From an archaeon (GTDB lineage Archaea; Nanobdellota; Nanobdellia; Woesearchaeales; ARS49), in assembly GCA_020051845.1 (NCBI GenBank), contig JAGVQG010000013.1, positions 1-45,479 on the forward strand: 45,479 nt of DNA. The letters run 5' to 3'. A program made the position numbers and the translations under genes. The notes beneath the pieces were generated by a model. It saw nothing but the letters and a program-made list of their open reading frames with translations. It was not told where the DNA came from and did no database searches. Position 1 is the stretch's first letter. Every line of letters starts with the position of its first letter. This document shows positions 37,913-40,290 of the stretch, one piece after another.

Positions 37913-37934
37913 TCAAGAACCACGTGGTTCTTGA
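37913..37934. promoter_or_regulatory. 22-bp perfect palindrome upstream of hicBA
   Basis: A perfect palindrome centred on CACGTG: left arm TCAAGAACCAC, right arm GTGGTTCTTGA. It lies about 25 bases before the hicBA TATA box and is a candidate operator; as RNA it could also form a strong hairpin. Confidence 0.6.
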
Positions 37935-37940
37935 GCATGC

Positions 37941-37968
37941 TCAGCATTTCAATGCTGACATTTATATA
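37941..37968 (+). promoter_or_regulatory. inverted repeat and TATA box of hicBA
   Basis: TCAGCATT-TC-AATGCTGA (37941-37958) is an 18-bp inverted repeat directly before TTTATATA (37961-37968). The TATA box predicts transcription start at about 37990, on the hicB start codons. Confidence 0.65.
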
Positions 37969-38540: not shown

Positions 38541-38762
38541 ATGACATATCAAACACAAGAAGCAGATTCAACAGCAAGGGAGAGTCTCATCAACGACTAT
38601 TTCCTTGGAAAGTATGACACGAGCGCTAGGCGCACTCCTGTCGAGATACTCAACGAAACGCCACGTGCGCGCGTCGTCGTCTCCAACGAGCTGGGTCTCA
38701 AGGAGCTACTTGAGAAATTATTGCCGAAAACGCAAGCTGTTCCAGTCGTCGCTGAACAATAA
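38541..38762 (+). CDS. small protein, 73 aa, unknown
   Basis: ATG 38541 ([20 protein letters not shown]) is preceded by a TTAGTGAGGA Shine-Dalgarno-like stretch and a TATA box GCTTTATAAAGG (about 38457-38467), giving a leader of about 50 bases with a GTGCA-TTTG-TGCAC hairpin. The protein is soluble and partly helical ([13 protein letters not shown]), with [20 protein letters not shown] in the middle. It lies just before the hairpin array and EF-1alpha. No family recognised. Confidence 0.5.
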
Positions 38763-38786: not shown

Positions 38787-38889
38787 CTTCAAAAAGAAGA
38801 AACCGAAGACGATGTCTTCGGTCCTCAAAACTTTCAGTTTTGAGAAATGCAAAACTTTGTTTTGCGTCCTCAAAACTTTCAGTTTTGAG
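38787..38889 (+). repeat. array of tandem hairpins before EF-1alpha
   Basis: Perfect stem-loops follow one another: CCGAAGAC/GTCTTCGG (38803-38821), CTCAAAACT/AGTTTTGAG (38824-38844), GCAAAAC/GTTTTGC (38849-38865) and again CTCAAAACT/AGTTTTGAG (38869-38889). Each loop has three bases. A weak CTTC/GAAG (38787-38799) precedes them. The second and fourth lie in an identical 27-base unit. The array ends six bases before the EF-1alpha TATA box (TTTATAAAC, 38895-38903). Confidence 0.8.
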
Positions 38890-38959
38890 AAACCTTTATA
38901 AACAGGCGACTTTCCCTCTCGAGCATACCAAATTACTGATAGAGGAGGGGTATATCAAA

Positions 38960-40237
38960 ATGGCAAGAACCAAACCACACCTGAATGTTGTATTCATCGG
39001 TCACGTCGACCACGGTAAATCGACGACTGTCGGTCGTCTTCTGTTCGACTCCGGCGCCGTCTCTGAGACAGAGATGCGTAAGCTCAAGGAAAAGGCCGAG
39101 GAGCTCGGTAAGGGCGGATTCGAGTTCGCCTTCGTCATGGACAATCTCAAGGAGGAGCGCGAGCGTGGTGTCACGATCGACCTCTCCCACAAGAAGTTCA
39201 GCACTGCGAAGTACGACTTCACGATCATCGACGCACCAGGCCACCGTGACTTCATCAAGAACATGATCACTGGCGCTGCCCAGGCTGATGCCGCTGTCTT
39301 GCTCTTGGGTTCCGAGGGAGTCCAGGCGCAGACGAGGGAACACGCTTTCCTCTCCAGGACTTTCGGCATCAAGCAGTTGATCGTCGCCGTCAACAAGATG
39401 GACACGATCGGCTACGACAAGGCCAAGTTCGAGAAGCTCAAGGCTGACGGCGAGGCTTTGCTCAAGAGCGTCGGTTTCAAGATCGACAAGATCAAGTTCG
39501 TCCCAGTGGCATCCTTCCTTGGCGAGAACATCGTGAAGAAGAGCGACAAGATGGCCTGGTACACTGGTCCCACGCTGCTCGAGGCGCTCGACGCTCTCGA
39601 AGTGCCTGAGAAGCCGACCAACCTGCCCCTCAGATTGCCTATCCAGGACGTCTACAGCATCACCGGTATCGGTGTCGTGCCTGTCGGTCGTATCGAGACC
39701 GGCATCATGAAGGTGGGCGACAAGGTCATAGTCATGCCTGGCCGTGAAGGCAAGGGAGTGACTGGCGAAGTCAAGTCCATCGAGATGCACCACGAGGCAT
39801 ACCAGCAGGCCGAACCCGGCGACAACGTCGGTTTCAACGTGCGTGGCATAGAGAAGAAGGACATCGCTCGCGGAGACGTGCTTTCGCACACCGACAAGCC
39901 CGCGTCTGTGGCTGTCGAGTTCACGGCGCAGATCATCGTGCTCAACCACCCGACTGTCGTCACTGTTGGCTACACACCAGTGTTCCACGTGCACACAGCG
40001 CAGGTGGCGTGCCAGATCACCGAGATCATCAAGAAGATCAACCCGGCGACTGGAGAGACCATGCAGGAGAAGCCTGACTTCATCAAGAACGGCGATGCCG
40101 CGATCGTGAAGTTCAAGCCGGTGCAGCCTCTGGTCATCGAGAAGCAGAGCGAGATCCCGCAGCTTGCGCGTTTCGCCGTCCGTGATTCGGGCGCGACCGT
40201 CGCCGCAGGCATGTGCATCGACCTCGTGAAGAAATGA
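38960..40237 (+). CDS. tuf: translation elongation factor EF-1alpha
   Basis: The 425-residue archaeal EF-1alpha delivers aminoacyl-tRNA to the ribosome. The start ATG 38960 follows a GAGGAGGGG Shine-Dalgarno, so the longer upstream frame is not used. Motifs: [16 protein letters not shown] (G1), [12 protein letters not shown] (G3), VNKMDT (G4), and domains 2 and 3 with [38 protein letters not shown] and [14 protein letters not shown]. The TATA box is at 38895-38903, giving a leader of about 36 bases. A T-rich stretch follows the stop. Confidence 0.97.
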
Positions 40238-40290
40238 TTTCATTTTTTTGATTTTGTTTCACGGCGAACCATCGCCGTGGGCCACACACC

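Follow-up and report, generated by a model that had tools for sequence, protein, structure and literature searches.

The 45,479-nucleotide stretch analysed here (the window; all coordinates are positions in it unless otherwise labelled) comes from the 1.33-Mb genome of a woesearchaeal archaeon (G000; other G-labels denote genomes of its relatives, which belong to Candidatus Woesearchaeota) and carries an array of small hairpins immediately upstream of the EF-1alpha gene. The gene occupies 38960–40237 on the plus strand, and its identification in an initial annotation of the sequence is borne out by a match to Pfam GTP_EFTU (4e-55). Its core promoter, a transcription factor B recognition element (BRE) followed by a TATA box (AAACC TTTATAAA), lies at 38890–38902 on the same strand, with TTTATAAA itself at 38895–38902, and relatives without the array have it at the same position; transcription is predicted to start near 38925. 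On the other side of the array, a small open reading frame (ORF) of 73 residues (38541–38762, plus strand), which belongs to no Pfam family, ends with its stop codon 34 bp ahead of the hairpins. In our reading, the array probably derives from a dispersed palindromic insertion element, for which we use the name twin-hairpin element, and is a degenerate copy of it doubled in tandem.

The array comprises four stem–loops, as the initial annotation had recognised, none of which has a strand of its own. Three have 9-bp stems closed by triloops: H1 at 38802–38822 (ACCGAAGAC-GAT-GTCTTCGGT), H2 at 38824–38844 (CTCAAAACT-TTC-AGTTTTGAG), and H4 at 38869–38889, which has the same sequence as H2. The remaining one, H3 at 38847–38867 (ATGCAAAAC-TTT-GTTTTGCGT), has a 7-bp core at 38849–38865 around its TTT loop and reaches 9 bp only by adding one T.G and one A-T pair. 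H2 and H4 are the two hairpins earlier placed, correctly, within an identical 27-mer, GTCCTCAAAACTTTCAGTTTTGAGAAA, whose copies (38821–38847 and 38866–38892) stand 45 bp apart, and the whole array is an imperfect 45-bp tandem duplication (38798–38842 and 38843–38887, 80% identity) in which the counterparts H1 and H3 differ by three compensatory pairs and the one T.G. The alternation of stem types, first described as A-B-A, has the fuller pattern B-A-B-A (H1-H2, H3-H4) with a period of 45 bp; the array does lie just before the EF-1alpha TATA box, with five bases and not six between H4 and TTTATAAA. Ahead of H1 there is a fifth, weak hairpin (TCTTC/GAAGA). Read on the minus strand, 38796–38893 consists of two units, TCTC[AAAACTgaaAGTTTT]GAGG[ACGCAAAACaaaGTTTTGCAT]T-TCTC[AAAACTgaaAGTTTT]GAGG[ACCGAAGACatcGTCTTCGGT]T-TCTTC, that is, X-hp-X'-hp-T-X-hp-X'-hp-T-X, with triloops and an unpaired T that occurs twice; H2 and H1 form hairpins A and B (hpA and hpB) of unit 1, and H4 and H3 those of unit 2. 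Because the three triloop stems of at least 9 bp in the window all fall in the array, where shuffles would give 0.5 in the entire window, and because the region folds with a z-score of -6.7 relative to shuffles, we do not attribute this arrangement to chance.

Is the array particular to this locus? The search for further copies of the repeated unit that the initial annotation had suggested yielded none, in that a whole-genome pattern search with up to three mismatches finds the 21-bp palindrome only as H2 and H4. A search by structure and not by sequence did uncover relatives of the array elsewhere in the same genome. Positional statistics were taken from about 596 kb of genome stretches together with whole-genome model searches. 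Hairpin clusters with stems of at least 7 bp number 16 in the 596 kb compared with 1–4 in shuffles, strict composites of the form X-n-hp1-X'-hp2-n-X number 14 compared with 0 across five shuffles, and the whole genome contains 10 occurrences of the palindrome pattern ACRRARC-NNN-GYTYYGT and none of its reversed control. The elements share an architecture of about 50 bp, NN-C-A-[hp1]-G-n'n'-C-[hp2]-T-G-NN (X-A-hp1-X'-hp2-T-X), in which perfectly paired stems of 7–10 bp with purine-rich 5' arms change freely in sequence, loops mostly have 3 bases, the linker X' is usually GNNC and is the complement of both flanking sequences, and a single A and a single T are left unpaired. Shape alone is conserved in this family. 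An X-A-hp-X'-hp-A-X layout with GAAA loops also occurs at L130:3054–3116, in a ribosomal RNA spacer between a stretch resembling transfer RNA (tRNA)-Ala and the 23S gene; its membership of the family is uncertain.

The pairing pattern of the family is borne out by covariation. A covariance model, R1, was built from seven elements at other loci, aligned with MAFFT from sequence alone, and its matches fall at about 35–40 distinct places in the genome. Across the seven seed elements, both partners vary in 14 of the 18 pairs, with 98% of the cells paired; none of 500 shuffles reaches their covariation score, and slid controls also fail. The 62 genome matches, both strands counted, contain 251 cells changed on both sides, as against 55 in shuffles. 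Among 1080 pair cells, 1040 are Watson–Crick, 8 are G.T and 10 are A.C; because G.T is no commoner than A.C, there is no wobble excess of the sort that constraint on an RNA would leave, an argument limited by the fact that the seeds had been picked for Watson–Crick stems. The right flank, which is unpaired in R1, matches the linker by full complementarity in 24 of the 31 copies outside the seed, where chance would give 1 in 64; of all 38 copies, 36 retain the unpaired A and 34 the unpaired T. The elements are dyad-symmetric, have no strand polarity and occur in all orientations. Rfam gave only sub-threshold chance matches on the array, none near a gathering score, and only tRNAs around the other copies.

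R1 matches the first unit of the array (38846–38796, minus strand) with 22.4 bits, at an E-value of 6.8e-5 for an unfiltered search of the window. The background maximum is 15.8 bits over about 0.9 Mb, of which 187 kb were likewise scanned unfiltered, and another twin hairpin of the same window, upstream of a hicB-hicA gene pair (HicA_toxin, 2e-14), reaches just 6.7 bits. The array has the two adjacent hairpins, loops of 3–6 bases and short linker by which members are recognised here. In both of its units NN/n'n'/NN reads CT/AG/CT, with one G.T, the unpaired T is kept, and the A pairs with an additional T. The X/X'/X alternation, the unpaired T and the triloops are common to this array and to two arrays of the family, L122:8685–8774 and G000:C46:12138–12238. 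It is likely, if short of proven, that the hairpins at EF-1alpha represent a worn, degenerate two-unit member of the family.

Where the elements lie, and what interrupts what, speaks to their origin. At 37 places in the genome, the window's own counted, the gap that holds the element is tandem in 13 cases, divergent in 10 and convergent in 8; the other elements lie within genes (4) or at the edges of contigs (2). Eleven of 31 adjoin a tRNA gene, compared with 11% of intergenic bases (binomial P ~3e-4, clustering ignored), and one adjoins tRNA-Val so tightly that the first bases of the tRNA are the right flank of the element. In the gene for Rpo3 (RNA polymerase subunit D), an in-frame element accounts for 15–18 extra residues that are absent from all 11 aligned relatives; further in-frame elements occur in the tail of uS3 and at the N-terminus of deoxyhypusine synthase, and the N-terminus of uL10 holds a partial match. 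A relative (L039, PCVE01000016.1) has two copies of the beginning of a tRNA-like gene, one the uninterrupted GCCCCGATGGTGTAGTCC and the other filled, as GCCCCGATG[46 bp]TGGTGTAGTCC, with a 46-bp twin hairpin that has the target TG on both sides and CA, the complement of this target, in its linker. This pair suggests that insertion duplicates 2 bp of the target.

The family is patchily distributed, being present in 15 of 57 genomes searched, the source genome included. Several elements each occur in G005, G031, G055, G056 and G041; among the 57, the closest genera, G003 and G010, have none. G008 and G013 are free of elements as well. At a strict cut-off, 22 of 279 genomes of the phylum have elements, all of them in the order of the source genome, Woesearchaeales. 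Another genome of that order, G108 (L276–L287), contains about 17 dispersed copies within repeats that resemble miniature inverted-repeat transposable elements (MITEs), a family of about 12–17 copies. Its commonest subfamily has 15-bp terminal repeats GGCTCTGTAGAAAGT and target duplications of about 9 bp and carries twin hairpins. One internal site of this MITE exists in three states: empty, with one twin hairpin, or with a different twin hairpin in which flank and linker are both altered, from CAC/GTGC to CGC/GCGC; X and X' can therefore change together in place. We do not take the G108 copies as proof that twin hairpins move, since what has been amplified there is a MITE, which has terminal inverted repeats and ~9-bp duplications of its own. 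As a candidate mobiliser, we considered the sole Y1 (IS200-type) transposase gene of the source genome (G000:C46:5911–6255; L213), whose contig has four elements and three tRNA genes. We did not adopt this candidate, since Y1_Tnp is absent from G005, G031, G055 and G056, which carry several to many elements.

How might such an element spread? The combined evidence points to mobility at the level of DNA. Its small size, dyad symmetry, non-coding nature and conservation in shape alone suggest that the element is recognised as folded DNA. We propose that a unit inserts as structured DNA, probably single-stranded or cruciform, into sites that tolerate it, mostly in intergenic gaps and at tRNA edges and now and then in frame within genes, and that units can stack in tandem. 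Pairing of the linker with the target dinucleotide at the time of insertion would account for its match to the flanks, and so would copying of the linker from the target. After insertion, both arms of each stem would change jointly, such that pairing stays while the sequence drifts. At EF-1alpha, an element may have landed just upstream of the BRE and TATA box, leaving the promoter intact; since the array stops short of the core promoter, it is probably non-essential for the gene and most likely a passenger. Whether the elements amount to an undescribed class of mobile DNA is a more doubtful matter, and we raise it tentatively: such a class would inherit shape alone, as a twin hairpin of ~46 bp with a 2-bp target duplication, the complement of the target in the central linker (a guide-like target pairing) and stem arms that are rewritten together, and the enzyme involved would be either new or a known one newly used.

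Several observations weigh against reading the array as an inserted member of a mobile family. At the EF-1alpha locus, the second unit (38893–38848, minus strand) scores just 8.4 bits, and R1 misses the array with its default filters and finds it with filters off only. The array also departs from the family rule in having the linker GAGG and not GNNC, no unpaired A, and CTCAAAACT stems without a bulge. For the family as a whole, the 2-bp target duplication rests on one clean filled/empty pair, no mobilising enzyme is linked to the elements, and, given the twin hairpins inside the amplified G108 MITE, part of their spread is hitch-hiking. A mutational process without mobility could also keep the stems perfect.

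Other explanations of the array fit parts of the evidence. It might be a multi-hairpin terminator, as the initial annotation had proposed, or a stabiliser of mRNA 3' ends, serving the small upstream ORF or hicBA by halting the polymerase or blocking exonucleases, and insulating EF-1alpha. Its position between a stop codon and the next promoter would suit such a role, as would the enrichment of hairpins in convergent and tandem gaps, which hold 8 and 13 of the 37 elements. However, with 10 elements in divergent gaps and 4 in called genes, those for Rpo3 and uS3 among them, this reading is disfavoured, and for the family it is ruled out by location; moreover, no U-tract follows the array on the plus strand, and the family shows neither a bias towards G.U pairing nor strand polarity. 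We consider a terminator unlikely at this locus. Tandem duplication combined with template switching at quasi-palindromes could have produced the hairpins locally and independently of the dispersed family; this would account for the 45-bp duplication, for a 21-bp palindrome without other copies in the genome at up to three mismatches, for the weak score of the second unit and for the imperfect linkers. This origin seems quite unlikely to us in view of the 22.4-bit match, well above the background maximum, the features shared with the arrays at L122 and on contig C46, and the failure of the neighbouring hicBA hairpin to score comparably.

The array could also yield a structured small RNA, processed from the sequence upstream of EF-1alpha, as the initial annotation had likewise suggested. 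Its strong folding and the compensatory changes between H1 and H3, together with one T.G that pairs only in RNA from the plus strand, would be in keeping with this. The perfect Watson–Crick stems of the family, with as few G.T as A.C, and their lack of strand polarity, with every orientation represented, disfavour a function as RNA, and no Rfam family comes near its gathering score; we regard this possibility as very unlikely. The suggestion of a DNA-level element, an operator or cruciform controlling EF-1alpha, came closest in placing the array at the level of DNA, and the palindromes, ending five bases ahead of the TATA box, are well placed for an operator. Its regulatory part does not hold up. 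No comparable array was found in 85 other EF-1alpha upstream regions, those of the closest relatives included, all of which keep the TATA box; in the relatives examined, BRE and TATA mostly lie about 55–90 bp ahead of the start. Over the 86 distinct upstream regions, the window's own counted, the median folding z-score is -0.2, and the window's alone is near -6.9, the next lowest being -3.0. Absence from relatives had been named at the outset among the grounds for abandoning the idea, and an explanation specific to EF-1alpha fails because of it; with the same kind of element present at dozens of unrelated places, control of EF-1alpha is, to our minds, scarcely credible, and judging from these upstream sequences the array does not appear to be a regulator of the gene.

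To which known elements do twin-hairpin elements compare? Closest in form are the double-hairpin elements (DHEs) found in the mitochondrial DNA of chytrids and fission yeasts, a likeness by analogy only. DHEs are described as short non-coding elements of two adjacent hairpins, scattered, mostly intergenic but in some cases within genes, presumed mobile and sporadic among relatives (PMC10085805; PMC4478555, citing Paquin et al. 2000). Twin-hairpin elements likewise vary in presence between relatives and sit in some genes. Unlike DHEs, they are chromosomal in an archaeon, their arms are not especially GC-rich, their sequence is free under a fixed shape, an A and a T are unpaired at set places, the linker matches both flanks, and some copies lie in frame in protein genes. 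Also among the closest in form, the repetitive hairpin elements of sponges include double and multiple hairpins, with insertion into genes and few complementary substitutions (PMC2800124). Rickettsia palindromic elements (RPEs) are inserted in frame in unrelated protein genes and are also intergenic (PMC10969869), as are our palindromic elements; RPEs, however, are about 150 bp long with a conserved sequence and peptide, whereas twin-hairpin elements are about 50 bp with a conserved structure and a peptide that shows no more than loose similarity.

Among bacterial repeats, repetitive extragenic palindromic (REP) sequences, with the bacterial interspersed mosaic elements (BIMEs) and REP doublets (REPINs) that they form and their REP-associated tyrosine transposases (RAYTs), are small extragenic palindromes that occur in large numbers within a genome and form inverted doublets with an unpaired base (PMC3733652, PMC2817692, PMC3116915). 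Twin-hairpin elements share the small palindromes, the doublets with an unpaired base and the copy number, but lack a GTAG/CGTC tag, a conserved sequence and a consistent Y1/RAYT transposase, and they occur in genes; their stems differ from copy to copy, and their flanks are complementary to the linker instead of forming a fixed tag. Like MITEs, which as REP sequences do fall in a similar range of sizes, they are dispersed, non-autonomous, palindromic DNA, but without terminal inverted repeats or a target-site duplication common to a known transposase, and in G108 they are passengers in a true MITE. They resemble bidirectional intrinsic terminators in their A-rich 5' and T-rich 3' arms and differ in having no unpaired U-tract and in lying also in divergent gaps and genes. 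No published description of such elements in Woesearchaeota was found in the literature searched, which largely did not cover subscription journals. For DHEs in fungal mitochondria and the kindred hairpin elements of sponge mitochondria, mobility has long been suspected and a mechanism is lacking; an archaeal family of similar shape offers a second, better-sampled system in which to study the mode of movement and the way in which stems remain perfectly paired as their sequence changes. It also cautions against reading hairpin arrays beside archaeal promoters as terminators or operators.

Other hairpins occur in the neighbourhood of the genes discussed here. Directly 3' of EF-1alpha, after a T-rich stretch, the hairpin CACGGCGAACCATCGCCGTG at 40260–40279 looks like an ordinary 3'-end hairpin. 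In a near relative, a three-hairpin array with GAGC/GCTC linkers (L034:4740–4830) is situated 3' of rps10, one gene downstream of EF-1alpha. The twin palindrome of the window's hicB-hicA pair, at 37913–37958, consists of TCAAGAACC-acgt-GGTTCTTGA, the linker gcatgc and TCAGCAT-ttca-ATGCTGA and stands directly ahead of the hicB-hicA TATA box; given its low R1 score, it is more likely a toxin–antitoxin operator.
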